Shown here piece by piece: positions 557-19,671 of a stretch of 19,675 bases of DNA. The notes beneath the pieces are model-generated. The model saw only the letters and a list, made by a program, of their open reading frames with translations. It was not told the origin of the DNA and ran no database searches. The stretch spans positions 1-19,675 of the forward strand of contig JALUBW010000032.1 of NCBI GenBank assembly GCA_027044735.1. Direction: 5' to 3'. A program made the position numbers and the translations under genes. The DNA comes from Anaerolineales bacterium (GTDB lineage Bacteria > Chloroflexota > Anaerolineae > Anaerolineales > DRMV01). Numbering within the stretch: position 1 is the first letter of the stretch; each line of letters starts with the position of its first letter.

Positions 557-1570
557 TCAATAGGTCATCTTGTCTTTCACGCTGATGCGCTGGCGGAAGG
601 TGTAGTAAGTCCAGGCCTGATACACCAACACCACAGGCACCAGCACCAAAGCCACGATGGTCATCACCTTCAGGGTGTAGGGGCTGGCCGAAGCGTTAGA
701 GATGGTGAGGCTGTATTTAGGATCCAGGCTCGAGGGCATGACATTGGGGTAGAGGGAGGCGAAGAAGCCCGCGGTCACGCCGATGATAGTCACCGCGCCT
801 GCCCAGAAGGCTTTGAGCATGTCGCCCTGTTTGAGGAAATAGCCGTCGGCCAACAGCGCAACCACCGCGATGGCCAAGAACACGGCGGCTATCCCAAAGT
901 ATTGGGCTTTCGAGAAGACCTCGGGGTAAGAGTAGAGCAAGAACAGCACGGCCATCACCAGCGTGGCCACCCAAAGGCGGTTTGCCACCCGGGCCGCCTG
1001 TTTTTCCAACCCGTTGCTCAACTTGAGGGCGAGATAGGTTGCGCCATGCATGGCAAAGAGCACCACAAAAGTGATGCCGCCCACCAGCGCGTAGGGGTTG
1101 AGCAGGTTGAAGAAGCCGCCCGCGTAGTTCATGTGCTCGTCGATGGGCACACCGCGCACGATGTTGGCGATGGCCACACCCCACAGCAACGCAGGGAGCA
1201 GGCTGCCCAACCAGATCAGCCAGTCCCACGTGTTGCGCCAGCCTTCGTCTTCGATCTGGCTGCGGAACTCAAAGCCGACGCCGCGGAAGATGAGCGCCAG
1301 CAGCAAGAGCACTAAAGCAAGGTAAAAGCCGCTGAACAGGGTGGCGTACCACTGGGGGAAGGAAGCAAACAGCGCGCCACCGGCGGTAATCATCCACACC
1401 TCATTGCCATCCCAGAAAGGCCCGATGGTGTTGAGGATGGCCCGGCGTTCCTCGTCGCGCTTGCCGAGGAAGGGCAACAACATGCCCACGCCGTAGTCGA
1501 AACCTTCGAGGAAGAAGAAGCCGCTAAACAGCACGGCAATCAAAATAAACCACAAAGTGTTGAGACCCAT
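557..1570 (-). CDS. cydB: Cytochrome bd ubiquinol oxidase subunit II (CydB)
   Basis: This 337-residue membrane protein is the second core subunit of cytochrome bd oxidase, which oxidises quinol and reduces O2 to water in the cytoplasmic membrane without pumping protons. Family motifs are GFDYGVGMLLPF (residues 23-34, with the conserved Asp25) and IGPFWDGNEVWMITAGGALF (49-68, with Asp54 and Glu57), followed by several hydrophobic helices. Length is slightly below the E. coli subunit. ATG at 1570 has an AGGAGG ribosome site 8 nt upstream. It lies 39 bp after cydA, so it is co-transcribed, and the operon terminator follows 28 nt after the stop. No small third subunit (CydX-like) fits between stop and terminator. 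Confidence 0.96.
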   Translation of the reverse strand: MGLNTLWFILIAVLFSGFFFLEGFDYGVGMLLPFLGKRDEERRAILNTIGPFWDGNEVWMITAGGALFASFPQWYATLFSGFYLALVLLLLALIFRGVGFEFRSQIEDEGWRNTWDWLIWLGSLLPALLWGVAIANIVRGVPIDEHMNYAGGFFNLLNPYALVGGITFVVLFAMHGATYLALKLSNGLEKQAARVANRLWVATLVMAVLFLLYSYPEVFSKAQYFGIAAVFLAIAVVALLADGYFLKQGDMLKAFWAGAVTIIGVTAGFFASLYPNVMPSSLDPKYSLTISNASASPYTLKVMTIVALVLVPVVLVYQAWTYYTFRQRISVKDKMTY

Positions 1571-1609
1571 GGTAAAACCTCCTAAAACAAGGAAGGGAAG
1601 CGGACTCGA

Positions 1610-2977
1610 TTAGTCTGCCTCGGCGGCATGCGGCGGGGCTTCGTGCAGGTGTTTGATCACCAGTTTGACGCCGTAGTAGGTGAGCACGATGTAGACCACG
1701 CCCAGCCCCAGCAGCGAGAAGAGCACCTCGCCGCCGCTGACTACCGACGCGGGCGAGACGCCTTTCGCGGTTTTCAGCAGGCCATAAACGACCCACGGCT
1801 GCCGGCCGACTTCCGCCATGATCCAGCCCGTCGAGACGGCCAGGTAAGGCAGCAAAATAGACCACACCATGGCCTTGGCAAAGCCCGGCCGCTCGGCCAA
1901 CGAAATGCCTTTGCTGTTCAGATACCACTGATAGAGCAGCAAAGCCAGCATCAGCAAGCCCGCGTAAACCATCAGCCGGAAAGCCCAATACGTGATGCCC
2001 ACCGGCGGGATGTAGTCACCCGGCCCGTATTTGGCTTCCATCTTGGCCTGCACCTCGTCGATGCCCTCGACTTTGCTGGTGAAATCGTTGTAAGAGAGGA
2101 AACTGAGGAAGCGGGGGATCTTGATGTCCAGCGCGTTGCTTTGGGTGGATTCATTGGGGATGGCAAACAGCGAGAAATCGGCAGGCTGCTCTGAATGCCA
2201 CAAAGCCTCGGCCGCGGCCATCTTGCTGGGCTGCTCTTTTACCAGGAACTGACCCTGGAAGTGTCCCACGGTGATGACCATGATCACGCCGATCAGGCCG
2301 TAGATGGTCGCCCAGCGCACCGACATATCCAACATGGCCTTGTCGCCGCGTTTTTTCAGGTAAAGGTAAGCGCTGAGGCCCAGCACCACGAAAGCAGCGG
2401 TGCTCATCCCCGCGAAGAACACATGGGGGAACTGATAGAGCACGTTGGGGTTGGTCGCTACCTGCCCAAAGTTGGCCATCAACACGCCGCTACCATCGGC
2501 TTTCATGGTGTAACCGGTGGGGTGCTGCATGAACGAGTTGGCGATCAAAATCCAGATGGCCGAGAGGTTAGAGCCAATGGCCGTGAGCCACAACACCGTG
2601 GCGTGGATTTTGGGGGAGACTTTATCCCAACCAAACACCCACACGCCGATGAAAGTGGACTCTAAGTAGAAGGCCAACAAGGCTTCTACGGCCAGCGGTG
2701 CACCGAAGATGTCGCCCATGAAGCGGGCGTACTCCGACCAGTTCAGGCCGAACTGAAATTCCTGAACGATACCAGAGACCACGCCCAGGGCAAAGTTAAT
2801 CAGAAACACTTTGCCCCAAAACTTCACCGCGTCACGGTACACCTTCTTGCCCGTACGGACGTAGGCCGTCTCTAAAATAGCCAGAAACACCGAGATGCCC
2901 AACGTCAACGGGACGAAGAAAAAGTGAATAATGGTAAGGATGGCAAACTGCCATCGAGCCAAGAAGTATGGATTCAT
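1610..2977 (-). CDS. cydA: Cytochrome bd ubiquinol oxidase subunit I (CydA), short Q-loop
   Basis: This is the haem-bearing quinol-oxidising subunit, 455 residues. Ligand positions match E. coli CydA closely: His18 (E. coli H19), Glu98 and Glu106 (E99/E107), His185 (H186), the quinol-site QPSKMAAAE with Lys252 and Glu257, then Met336 (M393) and Glu389 (E445) followed by GRQPW at 391-395. The shift of about 57 residues after residue 257 shows a short Q-loop, so the protein belongs to the short-loop class. The frame is open further upstream to 3064, but ATG 2977 is the start: it has AGGAGG 7 nt upstream and begins with the family-typical MNPYFLARWQF. It follows the Rrf2-type regulator gene by 97 bp and precedes cydB by 39 bp. 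Confidence 0.96.
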   Translation of the reverse strand: MNPYFLARWQFAILTIIHFFFVPLTLGISVFLAILETAYVRTGKKVYRDAVKFWGKVFLINFALGVVSGIVQEFQFGLNWSEYARFMGDIFGAPLAVEALLAFYLESTFIGVWVFGWDKVSPKIHATVLWLTAIGSNLSAIWILIANSFMQHPTGYTMKADGSGVLMANFGQVATNPNVLYQFPHVFFAGMSTAAFVVLGLSAYLYLKKRGDKAMLDMSVRWATIYGLIGVIMVITVGHFQGQFLVKEQPSKMAAAEALWHSEQPADFSLFAIPNESTQSNALDIKIPRFLSFLSYNDFTSKVEGIDEVQAKMEAKYGPGDYIPPVGITYWAFRLMVYAGLLMLALLLYQWYLNSKGISLAERPGFAKAMVWSILLPYLAVSTGWIMAEVGRQPWVVYGLLKTAKGVSPASVVSGGEVLFSLLGLGVVYIVLTYYGVKLVIKHLHEAPPHAAEAD

Positions 2978-3074: not shown

Positions 3075-3515
3075 CTATTCAGGGGAAGGAACAGCAGCCG
3101 CGATGGAGGTGCTTTCTTCTGCTAATTGGGCAATCGTGACCGAGCGCAGTTCTCGGCGAATCAGCGCCCGCAACCGCGCCCACCGCTTGCGCACCGGGCA
3201 CGTTTCGCTCAGCGGGCAAAAATCGGGGTCGTCGATACATTGCGAAATTTCCAGGGGTTCGTCGCTGGCCTCGACCACATCTAACAAGGTGATTTCATCT
3301 GCGGGGCGACGCAGCCACAAACCACCCTTACTACCCCGCCGCGATTGCACCAGCCCCGCACGCACCAGGTCGGCCACGATACGCTTCACAAAAGGCAAAG
3401 GGATCAACATCTCATCCACAATGTCTTGCACTAACCGCGGCCTTTCGCCCTGGTGAATCGCCAGGCTGAGGAGCACACGCACAGCATAATCGGTACGACG
3501 GCTAATTCGAAGCAC
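3075..3515 (-). CDS. Rrf2-family (NsrR/IscR-like) Fe-S transcriptional regulator
   Basis: This 146-residue protein has an N-terminal winged helix-turn-helix (RISRRTDYAVRVLLSLA, residues 3-19, then a recognition helix around PFVKRIVADLVRAGLV) and the Rrf2 wing GSKGGLWL. Three cysteines, Cys93, Cys100 and Cys106, sit where IscR/NsrR-type members bind a 2Fe-2S or 4Fe-4S cluster; spacing is C-x6-C-x5-C, one residue longer than the usual first gap. Such proteins sense NO, iron-sulfur status or redox. GTG at 3515 is the start, with AAGGAAG six nt upstream. As first gene of the cyd operon, preceded by a dyad overlapping the -10 box, it probably autoregulates and controls cydAB. The ligand sensed cannot be decided from sequence. 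Confidence 0.9.
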   Translation of the reverse strand: MLRISRRTDYAVRVLLSLAIHQGERPRLVQDIVDEMLIPLPFVKRIVADLVRAGLVQSRRGSKGGLWLRRPADEITLLDVVEASDEPLEISQCIDDPDFCPLSETCPVRKRWARLRALIRRELRSVTIAQLAEESTSIAAAVPSPE

Positions 3516-3546: not shown

Positions 3547-3599
3547 GTTACCCACAGTGTAACCTATTCTTGTCACGCTTTCAAGATGACGTTTGTCAT
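3547..3599. promoter_or_regulatory. Two dyads bracketing the cyd operon promoter (putative operators)
   Basis: GTTAC-N7-GTAAC (3547-3563) has perfect 5-bp arms and overlaps the -10 box. ATGAC-N4-GTCAT (3586-3599) has perfect 5-bp arms and lies just upstream of the -35 box. Position makes them candidate binding sites for the Rrf2-type regulator or another repressor/activator. The sequences are not a clear match to a known NsrR or IscR consensus. Confidence 0.5.
3556..3584 (-). promoter_or_regulatory. Sigma70-type promoter of the rrf2-cydAB operon
   Basis: On the minus strand, TTGAAA (3584-3579) is followed after exactly 17 bp by TACACT (3561-3556), a good housekeeping promoter. Transcription would start near 3549, about 34 nt upstream of the GTG at 3515. 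Confidence 0.65.
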
Positions 3600-3657
3600 G
3601 TTCGGCTTTCCAGCGGCTGCTTTGGGGGAAGCCTCCGGCTGCAAATAAAGGCAGATT

Positions 3658-3830
3658 GTAACTATTCAGCCACGAATAGACCACGGATTTTTAGGTCGCC
3701 AAGACTGCCAAGAAGCGAGGGCGAGCGTGGGCTTTTTAGTGTTTTTCGCCCAATCTGCGCTCATCTGTGGATCCCTTTCTGCGTAATCTGCGCAATCTGT
3801 GGTTTCTCCTCGCTAAGGCTGAACAGTTCC
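3658..3830. mobile_element. MITE-like element, copy B, with perfect 8-bp target duplication
   Basis: The 173-bp element starts with GTAACTATTCAGCC (3658-3671) and ends with GGCTGAACAGTTCC (3817-3830); the ends are inverted repeats matching at 12 of 14 positions. It is flanked directly by GGCAGATT on the left (3650-3657) and GGCAGATT on the right (3831-3838), a perfect 8-bp target-site duplication. The interior holds AATCTGCG/ATCTGTGG units and no coding capacity. It separates the cyd operon promoter from the large regulator gene at 4122. Confidence 0.9.
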
Positions 3831-3925
3831 GGCAGATTTTAAGTGGACACCGCCAAGACGACACCAAACCCCCAAAGCAACTTTGACCATCAGGTGGGGT
3901 TTATGGGTATAGACGATGTTTTTGC

Positions 3926-3964: not shown

Positions 3965-4121
3965 TTTAGAGCGCTCTCATCTTCCCTTCATGTTGAGCGC
4001 CTTCCCTGCTTCAGTTTTTCGTTGTTTCCTTGTACTTCCCTTGACCCTGTGCGTTTTGTATTAAGTGAGCACGTCTGAAAGAAGTCGGCGTGCTGGCTTC
4101 TTGTTGCTTTCCGACCGCGCC

Positions 4122-7100
4122 ATGAGCATCAAAATCCTCTGTTTGGGCCCCCCACAAATTTTGCTCGACGGCGCACCCCTCCCCCAAAACCACGACCTAC
4201 GCTTTCGGGAACGGGCGCTGCTGTTCTACCTTGCTGCACACGAAAAGCCCGTGCCGCGGAGCGAGGTACAACGCTTGTTCTGGGGGCCGGTGCGCCGTGC
4301 CGATACCGGGCAGTTGTCTATCCCCCTCAGCCGCTTGAGGAAGACGTTGCCTGAGATCGCTCCCCCTCGCGAGCAAAAAACGGCGTTTACCCTGCAGGTG
4401 CCGCCTCATTTGTTCATCGACTGCCGCGTTTTCCAAGAAGCCATTTCCCGCCGTTTGCCGGTGGCTCAGCGCACTCCCCTCCAACAGCCGCTACCTCACG
4501 CGCTGGTGTTGAGCCTGGCGCGGGCCGCCAAATTGTGGCGTGGCCCTTTTCTGCAAGGCTTCCTCACGCGACAGGCTCGTCATCGCTACCCCTTGTTTGC
4601 CCAGTGGGTCGATGAGACCGCGGCCGACCTGCAACAAAAATACTTTGCCCTAACCCGCCGTTTGGCCTACCACTTTTGGGTCGATGGCGACCCAGAAAAG
4701 GCACGCCACTTTGCTGACCAAGCGCTGGGCATCCACCCAGCCGATGAAGGGTTGAACCGATTGTTAGCCGAGGCCCAAAAGAGCAAAACTTCCCTTAAAG
4801 CCTCATCCTTACAGCGTGCGCCCTTTTCCTCCGCCCAGCCAGGTGCGCAGGCTGGGGCCAACGATACAAGCCCCTCTATTTGGAACACGCGCGATGTCTT
4901 GCAGGTGCCTTTTATCGGCCGGAGGCACATTATCAACGACCTGTTACAGCGCATCAGGCGAGGGCGGGTTGTCATCCTCTTGGGCGAAAGCGGGCAGGGC
5001 AAGACCCGGTTGTTGCAGCAAATCGAGGCTTCTGTAGAATCGACGCACCGGGTGTTGCGGGTGGGTTGCCGCTATGGCGAGCGGGAACAACCTTTTGCAC
5101 CGCTGCGTGAGGCGCTGCGTGAGCAAGTGCACCCCGATGAATGGGCGCGCGTGCCGCCGGAATGGTGGCCTTATCTGGTACATTTGCTCCCTGAAATTCG
5201 ACCTTATTTTCCTGAGAAAGACATTCCCCCATTGCCTTCGCCGATGCAAGCCCAATTGGTCGAGGCCATGCGTCAGGTGCTGCTGGTGCTGGGGCAGGAA
5301 AAGCCGCTCCTGCTTTGCGTAGACGACGCCCAGTGGAGCGATTCGGCCACCCTCGACGCGCTCACGACCTGGATCGATCGGCCGCCGTTCCACCTGGCCC
5401 CACCTTGGGAACGCCGCGCCACCATGCTCTTTGCCGCGCGGCCCGCAGCACATACCCCCACGCCCTTTCATCAACGCCTGCCTTTCTTTTTAGAAGAACG
5501 GCGCGGCTACCGCTTTGAATTGAAGGGTTTGAGTCAGTCAGAGGTCAAAGAACTCGCCGAGCCCCTCCTTCAACGCAAACTCACCCCTGCAGAGGTAGAA
5601 GAACTCTGGCGCGCTTCAATTCAGGGCACACCGCTATATCTACTGGAGATCATCCGTTATCAATTAGAAAACCACCGCGCCGCCTTGCCAGTGGAACAGT
5701 GGGCGACCCCGCAAGCCATGACCAACCTGCTCAAGCGCCGTCTACGGCGGCTGGATAAAGCCGCCCAGCGGGTGCTCTTTTTCGCCGCGCTGGAAGACGC
5801 AGACGTCCCTTGGCGCGCCTTGTTGATGGCTACCCAGGTAGATGCAGAGCAACTGAGCCCTATTTTGGCCAAATTAGAGCGCGCAGGGTGGTTGACCCAT
5901 TTTCGCGACGCGCCCCACGGCATCTTACGCTATGGCTTCACCCATGACAAACTTCGCGAAATCGTAGCCGCGCAAATAGACGACGTCTTACGGCAACACA
6001 TCCACTCTCGCTGGGCTCTGGCCTGGGAAAGCGCCCTGGGGCCAAAAGCCGAGCAGCGCGCGGCCGCCATTGCTCGACACTACCATGCGGCTGGCGACCC
6101 CTACCGGGCTTTTCATTGGTGGGTGCGGGCAGCCCGCTATGCCCTCAAATTTGGCGTAGCCCAACAAGCGCACGAAGCCTTCTCTCAAGCCGCGGGCCTG
6201 ATTGCCGAAGACCCACTACGCTTCCCTGAAAACGAAATTTGGCAGATGTTTTCAGAATGGACGCTGTTGGCCGGCGACACGGTCGACATTTCCACCTTGC
6301 AGTGCATTGCGTCCATGCTCAACCGTTTGGCCACAGCGCTCAACAGCCCCTTGCTGCGCAGCAGTAGCCTCAACGCTAAAGCCCACATCGCCCAACTCAG
6401 CAACCGCATGGACAAAGGCGCAGGCTATACCGCAAAAGCCATCCATCAACTCACTTTGCTGCGTGACGAAGAAGACACCGCCCTCCCACTGATGGAGATT
6501 TACACCCATCACGCGGCGTTACTTTATATGCAGGGTCAGATACAAGAATCGCTATCCTACCTTCAAAAAGCCTTGACCATCGGCGAATCGCGACGTGCAC
6601 CCTTTACCAACCTCTTTTTGGGGAGCACACATTACCAATTGGCTGTTTCATACGTGCTGGCCGTGGAGCCCCAACGTGCTTTACACCATGCCGACCTTTC
6701 GCTGCAAGCCTACGAAGCCAGCCGCCGCGTCTTTGGCTTAACCGACGCACTAGGCGTGCGTTCTTTGGCACTGTTTATGTTAGGGCGCTTAGAAGAAGCC
6801 CGCGCCGAAGCCGAACAAGCCTGTCAGCGGGCTGAACAGTTAGGCAAACCCCGCATGTTGAGTTATATTTACAGTTATTACGCCTTCCCACTCCACGCGC
6901 TGGGGCGCCTGGAAAAGGCATGGGAAGTCACCCAAAAAAGCCTGGAACTGCAAAAAAACAGCGGCGGAGTGCCTCTACCAGGGCAGGCGTTAGCCTTGAG
7001 GGTGCGAGGTGATATTTTCTTCTTGTTAGAAAATTGGGAAAGGGCGCTAACCTGCTATCAAAACAGCCTGAAACACGGCAGCCGTTTGGTGTTGGGGCCC

Positions 7101-7619
7101 GATGTGCTCTTTCGGCTGGCCATTACAGTGGCGCAGACAGGCGACCTCCCGCGCGCCCAGGCCCTGTTTGCCCAGGCATCAGAACAACAACGCGCCTCCA
7201 TTGCCACTGAGTGCCCCCTCATGCGGTTGGGGCGAGCAGAGTTGCTTTACTTGCAAGGCCGGTATGCCGACGCTCTACACGTGGTCAAAGAAGCATTGAC
7301 CGACGCCCAAACGCGGCAACGGTTAGAGGTGGTAGGAGGCGCCTATCTGCAGCAATGCCGCATTTACTTAACCCTTGGCGAAATAGAAAAGGCCGAAGAA
7401 GCCGCGCGGCACCTCTATGAACTGGGGAGAAAAATCAAATATCGGTGGCTTTGGCTGCGCGGGTTAGAAATGCTCCAGCGCCTGGGCGTCGCTACTCCCG
7501 CGCAACACCGCCAACTGCACCGATTTTATCGGGAACTGGCCGACTTGGCCAATCACCCCGATTTAGGGCCTGCGGTGATCCGCATGCTCATCAGCCGAGG
7601 ATGGCGTTTGGCCGCGTAA
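4122..7619 (+). CDS. Large SARP/BTAD-type transcriptional regulator with STAND-like ATPase and TPR repeats
   Basis: This 1165-residue protein has, in order, a winged-helix DNA-binding region (about 1-90, opening KILCLGPPQILLDGAPLP), a bacterial transcriptional activator (BTAD) domain (about 95-230), an AAA/STAND-type ATPase with Walker A GESGQGKT (288-295) and Walker B LLLCVDDAQ (Asp401, Asp402), then a long helical TPR-like region to the C-terminus (for example residues around LYMQGQIQESLSYLQKAL). The architecture resembles AfsR/MalT-like signal-dependent regulators, with ATP binding and TPR ligand sensing gating DNA binding. No C-terminal LuxR helix-turn-helix is seen. ATG 4122 is preferred because it starts the conserved domain; neither it nor GTG 4065 has a clear ribosome site. 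Target genes are unknown. Its 3' end overlaps the convergent gene by 57 bp. Confidence 0.88.
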   Translation: MSIKILCLGPPQILLDGAPLPQNHDLRFRERALLFYLAAHEKPVPRSEVQRLFWGPVRRADTGQLSIPLSRLRKTLPEIAPPREQKTAFTLQVPPHLFIDCRVFQEAISRRLPVAQRTPLQQPLPHALVLSLARAAKLWRGPFLQGFLTRQARHRYPLFAQWVDETAADLQQKYFALTRRLAYHFWVDGDPEKARHFADQALGIHPADEGLNRLLAEAQKSKTSLKASSLQRAPFSSAQPGAQAGANDTSPSIWNTRDVLQVPFIGRRHIINDLLQRIRRGRVVILLGESGQGKTRLLQQIEASVESTHRVLRVGCRYGEREQPFAPLREALREQVHPDEWARVPPEWWPYLVHLLPEIRPYFPEKDIPPLPSPMQAQLVEAMRQVLLVLGQEKPLLLCVDDAQWSDSATLDALTTWIDRPPFHLAPPWERRATMLFAARPAAHTPTPFHQRLPFFLEERRGYRFELKGLSQSEVKELAEPLLQRKLTPAEVEELWRASIQGTPLYLLEIIRYQLENHRAALPVEQWATPQAMTNLLKRRLRRLDKAAQRVLFFAALEDADVPWRALLMATQVDAEQLSPILAKLERAGWLTHFRDAPHGILRYGFTHDKLREIVAAQIDDVLRQHIHSRWALAWESALGPKAEQRAAAIARHYHAAGDPYRAFHWWVRAARYALKFGVAQQAHEAFSQAAGLIAEDPLRFPENEIWQMFSEWTLLAGDTVDISTLQCIASMLNRLATALNSPLLRSSSLNAKAHIAQLSNRMDKGAGYTAKAIHQLTLLRDEEDTALPLMEIYTHHAALLYMQGQIQESLSYLQKALTIGESRRAPFTNLFLGSTHYQLAVSYVLAVEPQRALHHADLSLQAYEASRRVFGLTDALGVRSLALFMLGRLEEARAEAEQACQRAEQLGKPRMLSYIYSYYAFPLHALGRLEKAWEVTQKSLELQKNSGGVPLPGQALALRVRGDIFFLLENWERALTCYQNSLKHGSRLVLGPDVLFRLAITVAQTGDLPRAQALFAQASEQQRASIATECPLMRLGRAELLYLQGRYADALHVVKEALTDAQTRQRLEVVGGAYLQQCRIYLTLGEIEKAEEAARHLYELGRKIKYRWLWLRGLEMLQRLGVATPAQHRQLHRFYRELADLANHPDLGPAVIRMLISRGWRLAA

Positions 7620-10110: not shown

Positions 10111-10125
10111 CCCCATTCTCGCGCC

Positions 10126-10512
10126 GTAACCGTTCAGCGCAAACAAAAGAGAAATCTCAATATCGCAGACGGAAAAACCACAGAAGACACAGAGAAGGCA
10201 CAGAAAATGGGGAGGCGGGAAACGGGATGCGGCTGTTGGCGTCATCTTGTCGACCTCGGCGTTGTTATCCACAGATTGACACAGATTTACGCCGATTGAA
10301 GCAGAAACACAGAAGACACAGAAACGCCACAGAAAACACAGAAATTTTCTCTCTGCGTCTTTGGGCGAGGCATCGCCTCGCCCCTACGCCGCGTCTTTGC
10401 GTTAATCTTGGCGCTCTTTGCGTTTCTTGGCGCCCTTGGCGCCTAAAATTCGCGGCTATCCGTCATTATCCGTGTTCATCCGCGGCCTATTTCCCCAAGG
10501 CTGAACTGTTAT
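10126..10512. mobile_element. MITE-like element, copy C, with perfect 8-bp target duplication
   Basis: A 387-bp element begins GTAACCGTTCAGC (10126-10138) and ends GGCTGAACTGTTAT (10499-10512), imperfect inverted repeats. CTCGCGCC flanks it directly on the left (10118-10125) and on the right (10513-10520), a perfect 8-bp duplication. The interior is nearly identical to copy A at about 170-455 and includes the same GGGCGAGGC-ATC-GCCTCGCCC palindrome (10363-10383). It sits between the divergent glycosyltransferase and nucleoside phosphorylase genes. Open frames across it are not credible genes. Confidence 0.92.
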
Positions 10513-10538
10513 CTCGCGCCACCCTTCGCCCGGGGGAG

Positions 10539-10544
10539 TATAAT
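10539..10544 (+). promoter_or_regulatory. Consensus -10 box for the pyrimidine-nucleoside phosphorylase gene
   Basis: A perfect TATAAT lies 59 nt upstream of the ATG. No recognisable -35 hexamer is 16-18 bp upstream, where the target duplication CTCGCGCC (10513-10520) lies; the element insertion may have displaced an original upstream region. Confidence 0.5.
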
Positions 10545-10602
10545 ACCGACAACGCCGCCGCGGCCGAGCAGATGCGGCACTTTCCCCTTCAAGGAGGCGC
10601 GT

Positions 10603-11907
10603 ATGCGCGCAGTCGACATCATCATCAAAAAACGCGACCGTCTCGAACTCTCTACCCAAGAAATCCAGTTTTTCATCGCTGGCTACACCCAGGGGAATAT
10701 CCCCGATTACCAGGCCGCCGCGTGGGCAATGGCCGTGCTCCTCAACGGGATGACCCCGCGCGAAACCACCGACCTGACCATGGCCATGGCCCATTCCGGC
10801 GACACACTGGACCTTTCGGGTGTGGTAGACATCGCGCTGGACAAACATTCCACCGGCGGCGTGGGCGACAAGACCACGTTGGCCGTGCTGCCCATGGTGG
10901 TCGCCGCGGGCGTGCCCGTGGGCAAAATGTCGGGCCGGGGGCTGGGCTTTAGCGGCGGCACGTTGGATAAATTGGAATCCATCCCCGGCTACCGCACCAA
11001 CCTGACCACCGAAGAATTCCTCCGCCAACTGCGCACCGTGGGCATTGTGCTCACCGGCCAATCGGCCGACCTGGCCCCCGCCGACGGCAAACTTTACGCC
11101 CTGCGGGATGTCACCGGCACGGTGCCCTCGATTCCGCTGATTGCTTCTTCCATCATGAGCAAAAAAATCGCGGCCGGCGCGCAGGGCATTGTGCTGGACG
11201 TGAAAGTGGGCACCGGTGCGTTCATGCAAACCTTGGCCGAGGCGCGCGAACTGGCGCAACTGATGGTCGCCATCGCCCAGCGGGTGGGGCGGCGGGCTAT
11301 CGCCCTGCTTTCGGATATGAACCAGCCTTTGGGCTACGCGGTGGGCAACGCGTTGGAGGTGCGCGAGGCCATCGACACCCTCCACGATCGCGGGCCTGCC
11401 GATTTCCGCGAGCACTGCCTCAAAGTGGCCGCGTACATGCTGATGCTGGGCGGCAAAGCCCAAGACGAAGCCAAAGGCCGTGCCTTGGCCGCCCGCACCC
11501 TGGCCGACGGCAGCGCGTGGGCGGTGTTTCGGCGCCTGGTGGCGGCCCAGGGCGGCGACGTGGCTTTTGTAGACCACCCGGAGCGGCTGCCCACTGCCCG
11601 CCTGCAGGCACCGCTGCCTGCCGCGCAAGACGGCTTTGTGGCCCAAATTCACGCCCGCCTGGTGGGCGAGGCCGCGGTGATCTTGGGCGCCGGCCGCGAG
11701 AAAAAGGGCGACCCCGTGGATCACGCGGTGGGCATTGTAGTGCACAAAAAGGTGGGCGACCCCATCGCCGCGGGCGAACCGGTGCTGACCATCCACGCCA
11801 ACGACGAGGCACGGCTGGCCGAAGCGCGGGCGTTGCTCACCCAGGCCGTGCAGGTGTCCGCTCAGCCGGTCGCCGCGTTGCCGCACTTTCATGGCGTGCT
11901 GATGTAA
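10603..11907 (+). CDS. pdp: Pyrimidine-nucleoside phosphorylase
   Basis: This 434-residue cytoplasmic enzyme reversibly cleaves uridine, thymidine and deoxyuridine with phosphate to base plus (deoxy)ribose 1-phosphate in nucleoside salvage. The family signature [16 protein letters not shown] occupies 110-125. Active-site residues fall at the same numbers as in characterised Geobacillus-type enzymes: Lys81, His82 and Ser83 with the phosphate loop GGVGDKT, Lys108, Thr120, Arg168, Ser183 and Lys187. Full length, with the C-terminal barrel-hybrid domain present ([15 protein letters not shown]). ATG 10603 has AAGGAGG 8 nt upstream. It stands alone on the plus strand between an inserted element and a hairpin. 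Thymidine-specific DeoA is the alternative, but length and residue numbering favour PyNP. Confidence 0.93.
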
Positions 11908-11927
11908 TTTCCCCCCACACCCCACGC

Positions 11928-11961
11928 GTCGACGGGGCGAGCAGATGCTCGCCCCGTCGAC
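11928..11961. terminator. Long perfect hairpin between convergent pdp and degV-like genes
   Basis: The arms GTCGACGGGGCGAGCA and TGCTCGCCCCGTCGAC are perfectly complementary over 16 bp with a 2-nt centre, so four or more inner bases would form the loop. It lies 20 bp past the pdp stop and 37 bp past the opposing stop. Neither side has a T tract, so it may be a bidirectional transcription barrier or a REP-like palindrome rather than a classic terminator. A smaller hairpin, GGGAG-TCT-CTCCC, follows at 11976-11988. Confidence 0.6.
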
Positions 11962-11998
11962 TTGGATGGATGGAGGGGAGTCTCTCCCAATTATAACC

Positions 11999-12850
11999 TT
12001 ACATTCCAGCAACATACACCAGCCCGACCCCCTCGGGCCCGACGTGCGTGCCCACCACCGGGCTGACCATGCTGAGGAAACTTTCTTCGACCTCTACCCG
12101 GCGGGCGAGTTGCTCCAGCAGGCTTTGCGCCTCTTCGGTGGCGCCCGTGTGGATGGCGCTCAGGCGCACGGGGCGGCGGTCGCCAATGCGTTCTACCGTG
12201 ATGTCGGCGATGCGTTGGATGACCTTGCGGCGGGTGCGCACTTTTTCCAACGGTTCTACCCGGCCGCCGCGCACTTCCAAAATGGGTTTGATGCGCAGCA
12301 AGGTGCCAAACCAGCGGCTGGCCCCGCCAATGCGTCCCCCCCGGTGGAGGTATTCCAGCGTCGGCACCATGAGCAGCAGCCCGCTGTGCTCCCGGGCTTG
12401 CTCCGCGATGGCCTGGCATTCGGCCAGCGTGGCGCCCGCGGCCGCAGCCCGAGCGGCCAAAAGCGCGTGGAAGCCGGTTTCCATCGCGGTGGAAAGCGAA
12501 TCGACGATCGCGATGTTCTCTGCCCCCAGCATGGCTTTGGCCTGCTCTGCGGAATTGAGGGTGCCCGACATTTTGGAAGAGATGACCACTGTCAAAATGT
12601 CGTAACCTTCGTCCAACAGCGATTGGAAGACGTCCACGAAATCTTGTGCTGGTGGCTGGGAAGTAGTGGGCAGGGTTTTGGAAGTACGCAGGCGCTGATA
12701 AAAGGCTTCGGGCGTCAGGTCGACGCCGTCAAGGAAAATTTCTCCATCCCAGACCACCCGCAGCGGCACCACCCGCAGGGGGTATTGGGCAACCATATCG
12801 GGGGGGATGGAAGCGGTGCTGTCGGTAACTACAGCCACAGGTTTGCTCAT
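11999..12850 (-). CDS. DegV-family fatty-acid-binding protein, second of a tandem pair
   Basis: A 283-residue DegV protein: VTDSTASIP (8-16), a DGVDLTPEAFY segment, VVISSKMSGT, the RGGRIGGASRW motif, KPILEVRGG and a C-terminal GTHVGPEGVGLVY. DegV/FakB proteins bind a fatty acid in a deep cleft; in Firmicutes they present it to the kinase FakA for phosphorylation and lipid synthesis. No FakA-like gene is in the window. ATG 12850 has GAGGTG 4-5 nt upstream. It begins 26 bp after the first DegV gene and is the same length (283 aa), with clear similarity throughout, so it arose by tandem duplication. Lipid preference is unknown. Confidence 0.92.
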   Translation of the reverse strand: MSKPVAVVTDSTASIPPDMVAQYPLRVVPLRVVWDGEIFLDGVDLTPEAFYQRLRTSKTLPTTSQPPAQDFVDVFQSLLDEGYDILTVVISSKMSGTLNSAEQAKAMLGAENIAIVDSLSTAMETGFHALLAARAAAAGATLAECQAIAEQAREHSGLLLMVPTLEYLHRGGRIGGASRWFGTLLRIKPILEVRGGRVEPLEKVRTRRKVIQRIADITVERIGDRRPVRLSAIHTGATEEAQSLLEQLARRVEVEESFLSMVSPVVGTHVGPEGVGLVYVAGM

Positions 12851-13939: not shown

Positions 13940-14207
13940 GCAACGATTCCGTCACAAGGGAGTAGACCACGGATAACACGGAGCGCCACGGATGCGCACG
14001 GGTTTTTGGGGTCGCCAAGGGGCGCAAAGGAACGCAAAGGTAACTGTTCAGCCTCAAAGAGACGCTGCGGATGACGCAGACAGAAAACCACAGAAGACAC
14101 AGGAAGAGGGATGCGACCGTTGGCGTCATTTTGGCGACCTTGGCGCCCTAAAATCCGCGTCTATCCGCCATCATCCGTGGGCTGTTTTTCAAAGGCCGAA
14201 CAGTTAC
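13940..14207. mobile_element. Composite MITE-like element, copy D, inserted in the tail of the 59-aa gene
   Basis: The right end GGCCGAACAGTTAC (14194-14207) is an intact terminal repeat. A perfect consensus end GTAACTGTTCAGCC lies inside at 14040-14053, and a decayed left end GCAACGATTCCGTC lies at 13940-13953, followed by the same CACAAGGGA-TAGACC stretch seen at 16786. The sequence flanking the outer pair is ACGCCTGC (13932-13939) and ACGCCTTG (14208-14215), 6 of 8 matching; the inner end is preceded by ACGCAAAG, matching only 4 of 8. The best reading is two fused or nested copies with an aged duplication. Confidence 0.7.
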
Positions 14208-16741: not shown

Positions 16742-16771
16742 GGGGGCTCTCTTTTTTGGGGGGCGGTGTCT

Positions 16772-16953
16772 ATTCGGGTTCAGCCACAAGGGAATAGACC
16801 GCGGATACACGGATGTCTGCGGATTTTTTAGGGCGTCAAGTAGAGGCGAAGCACAGAGGAAATAACGCCTGCCGCCTCCTGTTTCCCGTGCTCTGCAGTC
16901 GGCAGAATCTGCGTAATCTCTGTGGTTTCTCCTTGCCAAGGCAGAACAATGGC
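16772..16953. mobile_element. MITE-like element, copy E, between the 80-aa gene and the response regulator
   Basis: The left end has GGTTCAGCC (16777-16785) followed by ACAAGGGAATAGACCGCGG; the right end is GGCAGAACAATGGC (16940-16953), preceded by TCTGTGGTTTCTCC as in copy B. The ends are worn and the flanks match at only 5 of 8 positions (CGGTGTCT and GGGTTACT), so this is an older insertion. It begins 30 bp upstream of the response regulator start and ends 4 bp from the stop codon of the 80-aa gene, so it probably supplies or replaces the promoter region of the regulator. Confidence 0.65.
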
Positions 16954-16956
16954 GGG

Positions 16957-17199
16957 TTACTCGCGGATAAAGCCGATGATTTCCTCTTCCTCGGGGCCGG
17001 GCATCACCTCGATCAGGGTCACGCGGCTCAAGGGGATGATGATCGTGGTCACTTCGGGTTCCACGTAGTGAATGTCTTTGCCGTCGCGGCGGCGGGGGTT
17101 TTTGATGGTCACCATAGTATCTTGCGGGCTGGGCAAGGCTTCTACCTCGCCGGCGATGGGCTCTTCGTTGGGGATGTGGAGGATGAGGGTGATGGCCAT
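16957..17199 (-). CDS. 80-residue acidic protein, function unknown
   Basis: I do not recognise a named family. The protein reads as a run of short beta strands: [52 protein letters not shown] and EIIGFIRE, with a glutamate-rich stretch before the last strand. The pattern resembles small beta-barrels of the Sm/Hfq or SH3 type, but no specific Sm residues can be claimed. ATG 17199 has GCGAGG 6 nt upstream. It follows the FHA gene by 48 bp and is probably the last gene of that operon. Its good ribosome site, balanced composition and codon usage like its neighbours support a real gene. Confidence 0.75.
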
Positions 17200-19414: not shown

Positions 19415-19671
19415 GTCATTATTCAGCCTTGAGAAAATCGGCCGCGGATGACGCAAATGGCAACGGATTCCCACGGATTACGACGTCAGGCCGTAAACAA
19501 CGGAAGTGAGCGTGGTGCTTTTCAGCGTTTTTCTCTCAATCTGTGATCATCTGTGAAATAGTATGATAAAGGCAGGGGGCGGGTGCGGCAGGTCGGTAGT
19601 GAAATGGTCCTTTGAGACCGGCACAGAGTGAAGGCCGCCGCACCCGTTTTCAAAACAATCCGAACAGTTAC
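19415..19671. mobile_element. MITE-like element, copy F, near the right window edge
   Basis: The left end GTCATTATTCAGCC (19415-19428) and right end ATCCGAACAGTTAC (19658-19671) are imperfect inverted repeats of the family. The interior has ATCCGCGG/ACGGATTCCCACGGATTAC-type units on the left, AATCTGTGATCATCTGTGAAA in the middle and a branched structured part on the right that is absent from the other copies. The left flank is GCGTCAAC and the right flank visible before the window ends is CAGG, so a duplication is not seen; the two ends may belong to different insertions. Confidence 0.55.
19573..19650 (+). ncRNA. Candidate structured small RNA inside copy F
   Basis: A -10-like TATGAT (19562-19567) precedes a stretch closed by a perfect 10-bp helix, CGGGTGCGGC (19580-19589) with GCCGCACCCG (19637-19646), followed at once by TTTT. 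Inside are a GGTC-N6-GACC hairpin (19606-19619) and a small CAC-AGA-GTG hairpin (19622-19630). The similar strings GTAGTGAAAT and AGAGTGAAGG occur in the joining segments. It is not a tRNA and matches no riboswitch class I know. No -35 box is evident. It could equally be a palindromic end of a repeat. Confidence 0.35.

Follow-up and report, generated by a model that had tools for sequence, protein, structure and literature searches.

The window, by which we mean the whole 19,675-nucleotide stretch analyzed here, encodes an Rrf2-type regulator (PF02082) at 3075-3515 on the minus strand and an AAA/TPR (MalT-like) protein at 4065-7619 on the plus strand. Between these genes lies a 173-bp intergenic element at 3658-3830, 142 bp from the start of the Rrf2-type gene. 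Its left terminal inverted repeat is GTAACTATTCAGCC (3658-3671, plus strand), identified from the window sequence, an end-motif scan, and the consensus end GTAACTGTTCAGCC of 41 elements (see below). The right terminal inverted repeat, identified from the window sequence and the same scan, is GGCTGAACAGTTCC (3817-3830), which reads GGAACTGTTCAGCC on the minus strand. The 145-bp interior (3672-3816) is non-coding and contains CCACGGATT, CGCCAAGA, and AATCTGTGG modules. Perfect 8-bp copies of GGCAGATT abut both edges of the element, at 3650-3657 and 3831-3838.

A first-pass annotation of this DNA had described the block as a transposed MITE-like element with 14-bp inverted ends and a perfect 8-bp duplication exactly at the terminal-repeat boundary. 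Comparison with the window sequence showed that its coordinates for the element and for the GGCAGATT duplications were correct and that the duplication does sit at that boundary. The ends are inverted copies of each other as described, but imperfect ones, GTAACTATTCAGCC and GGAACTGTTCAGCC being alike at 12 of 14 positions. The element has no coding capacity, since the sole listed ORF of at least 80 aa across it (3570-3842, plus strand) starts outside it; it is thus short, non-coding, and inverted-ended, as MITEs are. No Rfam family reached threshold anywhere in the window. The entire element forms an imperfect hairpin with an RNA fold somewhat better than that of shuffles (z -2.68), as inverted ends would produce.

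Related elements in the window and in its genome

End-like sites are overrepresented in the window, where 14 were found with up to three mismatches against 3.65 expected, a number reached in 0 of 200 shuffles. The genome that carries the window, a 1.3-Mb draft rated 63% complete, has 24 sites matching AACTRTTCAGCC with at most one mismatch, compared with 2 for a reversed-pattern control. The excess of the end motif in the window and in its own genome is not due to chance.

Pairing of end motifs delimited further family members, elements D and B. Element D (10126-10512) has the ends GTAACCGTTCAGCG and ATAACAGTTCAGCC, and flank comparison identified a perfect duplication, CTCGCGCC, on its left (10118-10125) and right (10513-10520). 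Element D also contains the 3' terminus (the final 18 codons plus the stop, 10456-10512) of a minus-strand ORF at 10456-12015. In 12 other family genomes, homologues of this ORF gave alignments confined to residues 27-504 of 519; genome G072 has four weak matches (E 3e-4 to 1e-3) that cover little beyond the tail encoded by element D. Element B (14040-14207) has the ends GTAACTGTTCAGCC and GTAACTGTTCGGCC; its flanks, ACGCAAAG and ACGCCTTG, agree at just 5 of 8 positions, which may reflect either decay or a chance match.

Elsewhere in the window, the region at about 16770-16960 keeps interior modules and lacks clean ends, and that at 19415-19671 contains end-like sites and abuts the window edge, with its right flank outside view. 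Both are probably decayed relatives of the family.

Copies, duplications, and empty sites in related bacteria

The element family is amplified in related bacteria. The exact end GTAACTRTTCAGCC occurs in 27 of 151 genomes of the order, with 153 occurrences in G072, 120 in G080, and 55 in G133, and a reversed-pattern control gave 0 in each of these three. We scored flanking duplications in stretches of G072 (16) and G080 (20), 385 kb in total, that had been picked for carrying listed ends. Left and right ends separated by 100-700 bp formed 46 pairs, with 42 distinct right ends; 32 more left ends were unpaired. A perfect abutting 8-bp repeat was present in 20 of the pairs, and 28 matched at 7 or more of the 8 positions. 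The remaining 18 pairs had six or fewer matches. When left and right flanks were cross-paired between elements (2,070 combinations), only 0.1% were perfect and 0.43% reached 7 of 8. After one flank was shifted by 1-4 bases, 0 or 1 of the 46 pairs was left, and the repeat was perfect only at length 8 and in the abutting register. Dispersed copies thus carry a target-site duplication of fixed length, as expected of MITEs, at exactly 8 bp in these 28 pairs, and the search for flanking repeats at other copies that the first-pass annotation had proposed bore out its reading.

Across the 41 family elements with a duplication of at least 7/8, the consensus end is GTAACTGTTCAGCC and composition is looser beyond it; these elements were chosen by a 14-base pattern with up to three mismatches, so that the sharp edge at position 14 comes partly from selection. 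Their duplicated targets have no strong motif.

Joined flanks of 53 elements (at least 7/8; some outside the family) were compared with the collected loci. The copy at L074 2435-2669 of G026, whose duplication is CTTCTTTG, corresponds to an empty orthologous site in G080 (L095, 8179-8478), where CTTCTTTG occurs once, the element is missing, and identity is 95.3% over 300/300 bases. This sister copy therefore has the precise empty site in a relative that is a mark of MITEs. One insertion in G072 (L082, 9663-9927) is nested inside another copy, of which uninterrupted relatives with 93-94% identity occur elsewhere. For the 3658 copy, an empty site, which would read AAA-GGCAGATT-TTAAGTGG, was not found in relatives; its flanks barely align with them and, when joined, gave only a 31-bp match to Rrf2 orthologue loci. 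The empty-site comparison that the earlier annotation had suggested thus succeeded for the sister copy, filled in G026 and empty in G080, but not for the 3658 copy.

The G080 orthologue of the same Rrf2 gene lies at 1501-1911 (minus strand) of locus L285. Upstream of it is a separate insertion (2004-2452, duplication CATTGAGA), which itself carries an insertion of a second family, described below, at 2133-2347 (duplication GACGCTTC).

The block might instead be a drifting intergenic repeat, REP-like or made of tandem modules, whose ends and duplication arose by chance or recombination. Modules do occur without recognisable ends: neither end was present at 14 of 22 module blocks in the window's own genome (loci picked by similarity, some overlapping, so that double counts are possible), and the modules are therefore not confined to the element. 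In the G072 and G080 stretches, however, 14 of 34 CAGATT-type module blocks had both ends and 13 of 34 had a single end; of 680 blocks placed at random within those stretches, the corresponding numbers were 26 and 48. A drifting repeat is further contradicted by the duplication statistics, the register test, the empty site, and the nested insertion, and we regard it as very improbable.

The full signature, inverted ends with an exact 8-bp duplication, is present at 3658 and is shared by many sister copies. The transposed-MITE reading of the earlier annotation is supported by the duplication statistics in relatives and by the empty site of the sister copy, and we consider it highly probable that the 3658 block is a transposed, gene-less MITE with IS66-type (ISBst12-type) ends that was moved in trans. 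An anonymous intergenic repeat thereby becomes a mappable insertion family with base-exact boundaries and predictable empty sites, and the 8-bp duplications allow separate insertions to be distinguished.

IS66-type ends and the candidate parent

The MITE ends are of the GTAACT-R-Y-TCAG type found in the ISBst12 group, and the 8-bp duplication is likewise that of this group. Family and protein searches of the same order and class supplied IS66 loci, and viral contigs contributed another seven. An end screen of 70 loci, which tried starts such as GTAA, GTGA, GTAT, and GCAA and whose counts apply to ends of those kinds, reported a pair in 28 and an 8/8 duplication in 16. Some of the screened pairs (L189, L373) look spurious. 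Fourteen of the 16 loci with an 8/8 duplication have ends loosely of the GTAACTRYTCAG type, and those of L130 and L131 are clearly different.

Several complete elements closely resemble the MITE ends. An IS66 element of Thiocapsa marina (L182, 1525 bp) has the ends GTAACTGTTCAGGT and an 8/8 duplication, GAAAGATT, and its protein matches the profile of IS66 transposases. It came from a scan designed for an IS66 C-terminus adjoining a MITE-type end, in which IS66 was encoded beside the end at 3 of 80 loci among the matches listed (at least 119 stretches). Proteins with 35-39% identity to that of L182 are encoded by the IS66 elements L276, L277, and L279, each with an 8/8 duplication. L276 (1895 bp, longest ORF 492 aa) has one end that is exactly GTAACTGTTCAGCC, the other being GTATCCATTCAGCC (duplication CATAATTT); the ends are GTAACTATTCAGTC in L277 (duplication AAATCCCC) and GTAACTATTCAGCA in L279 (duplication CTATGGCA). 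At L141, GTAACTACTCAGCC is present at both ends. A matching duplication is absent there and from L113, L134, L135, and L349, which are also single-ORF IS66 loci with ends of this kind. NCBIfam NF033517 identifies the L141, L144, and L134 proteins as IS66 transposases. No IS66 element carrying the exact GTAACTRTTCAGCC at its two ends was found among the loci screened, and among 146 plasmid records with a relative of the L182 transposase none reached 60% identity.

Because the ends and 8-bp duplications of the IS66 loci and of the published ISDge4 (see below) are alike, we assign the MITE ends to the IS66, ISBst12 type. As judged from these sequences, the parent is likely to be found among IS66 transposons of the single-ORF ISBst12 type. 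No IS66 transposase (PF03050 or NF033517) is present in the 3658 element, which can at most be a derivative that uses IS66-type ends, as opposed to an IS66 element. Its mobilization would involve a DDE transposase of IS66 type, acting in trans, that recognises both MITE ends and joins them to an 8-bp staggered cut, the repair of which would make the 8-bp duplication.

The same genomes contain a second MITE family, with ends GTAAYTACCTACCC, of which 27 pairs were found in loci of G072, G080, G039, and G026 (for example, L089, 11186-11426, in G072). Eighteen of these have a perfect 8-bp duplication and four match at 7/8. Members of this family are often nested within the first, and 13 of the 151 genomes carry the exact second-family end, which has four sites in the window's own genome. 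A shortened IS66 element in G046 (L149, 1114-2136) has an ORF that ends inside GGGTAGGTAGTTAC, which is the second-family end; a matching duplication is absent at this element. G046 also carries a MITE with second-family ends and a perfect duplication, CTCTGATC (L523, 1501-1672).

MITEs usually, though not of necessity, share a genome with their parent element. The transposase itself was not detected alongside the MITEs. PF03050 (E<=1e-3) had no match in G000, G039, G026, G072, G080, or G133, six family genomes that bear copies, and at E<=1e-10 it matched 1 of 18 family genomes, G147, which is without the exact end. All six negative genomes are drafts, G000 being 63% complete. Multi-copy IS elements are often missing from draft assemblies, so the absence of PF03050 is weak evidence, yet G072 is rated 100% complete. 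The supplier, unseen in the drafts, may have been lost, may be unassembled, or may have been present for a limited time. That 55-153 exact ends per genome occur without a detected transposase is a point that transposon specialists would want explained.

This absence in the six genomes favors a different account, in which the element is a transposed MITE moved by another transposase family that makes 8-bp duplications and its IS66-like ends are convergent. Against such convergence, the ends agree closely with those of several complete IS66 elements, one end being identical, and an end found at an IS66 ORF is likewise carried by the second MITE family in these genomes. We consider another mover unlikely and retain IS66-type mobilization as the preferred reading.

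It could also be proposed that the element is the non-coding part of a larger, gene-carrying element with the same ends, the cargo being GxxExxY or another gene. GxxExxY is common (PF13366 in 11 of 13 genomes), and one of 12 GxxExxY loci, L117, has a family member of 203 bp whose duplication is perfect and which lies beside the gene, not around it. None of the 12 loci, however, placed GxxExxY between such ends with a matching duplication. Of 157 pairs of ends separated by 600-12000 bp in the loci compared, 2 had flanks alike at 7 or more positions. One of the two is a 653-bp element (L109), and the other, a 9.6-kb pairing in L082, resembles a chance match. We regard this reading of the 3658 element as extremely improbable. 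These long pairs were also considered as candidates for long autonomous copies and were rejected, genes being shown in neither of the two cases.

Viral contigs contain the exact GTAACTGTTCAGCC at no fewer than 80 loci, among at least 120 stretches. Of the 13 end pairs there, 3 short and 10 long, none had flanks alike at 7 or more positions, and IS66 protein matches were absent from these loci among the matches listed.

Wider distribution and comparison with known systems

Similar short elements occur in other groups, in records from several phyla. Among 80 genome loci listed by a biased end pattern, 8 of 26 short end pairs, at seven loci (L167, L177, L185, L188, L201, L223, and L232), had 7-8/8 flank matches. 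The record titles of these loci name Planctomycetota, Clostridiales, Anaerolineae, Syntrophaceae, Desulfobulbus, Sedimenticola, and Prevotellaceae. BLASTN (E<=1e-3) of the eight other-group interiors against the 41 family elements gave no match, and the interior of the window element gave 32 matches among the same 41 elements at this threshold. Tentatively, IS66/ISBst12-type ends might characterize a class of MITEs, spanning phyla, in which the intergenic repeat modules of each lineage are enclosed, CAGATT-type blocks in this family and different interiors in the other records. Such MITEs might thereby disperse some of the widespread unannotated intergenic repeats, with a transposase that need not be encoded by the host.

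A literature search that covered few subscription papers found no description of an IS66-derived MITE in the texts available to it and no paper for the letters of the MITE ends, and a search for Chloroflexi with MITE gave nothing relevant among the matches listed. MITEs as a kind are already known; the 3658 family is a new addition, whose transposition is well supported and for which a likely parent family can be named.

Among the closest published systems is ISDge4 of Deinococcus geothermalis, an active IS66 element of the ISBst12 group (PMC12898284). Its ends, GTGACTACTCAGCA and GTAACTGCTCAGCA, resemble the GTAACTRTTCAGCC found here, and it likewise has an 8-bp direct repeat. ISDge4 encodes a 449-aa transposase, whereas the 3658 element is 173 bp long and encodes none. 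MITEAba12 is also short and gene-less, has inverted ends and a duplication, and is thought to be mobilised in trans, but its parent ISAba12 is present in the strain, its duplications are 9 bp, and its length is 111-114 bp (PMC6382973). MITECca01 of Cardinium, about 240 bp long, is similarly IS-derived and multicopy, but its parent belongs to the IS982 family and has intact copies in the genome (PMC9769881). MITEPye1 of Paracoccus yeei shares the short length, inverted ends, direct repeats, stem-loop, and mostly intergenic location of the elements described here, and differs in a parent thought to be of the IS1182 family and in its 1-3 copies per chromosome (PMC11578231).
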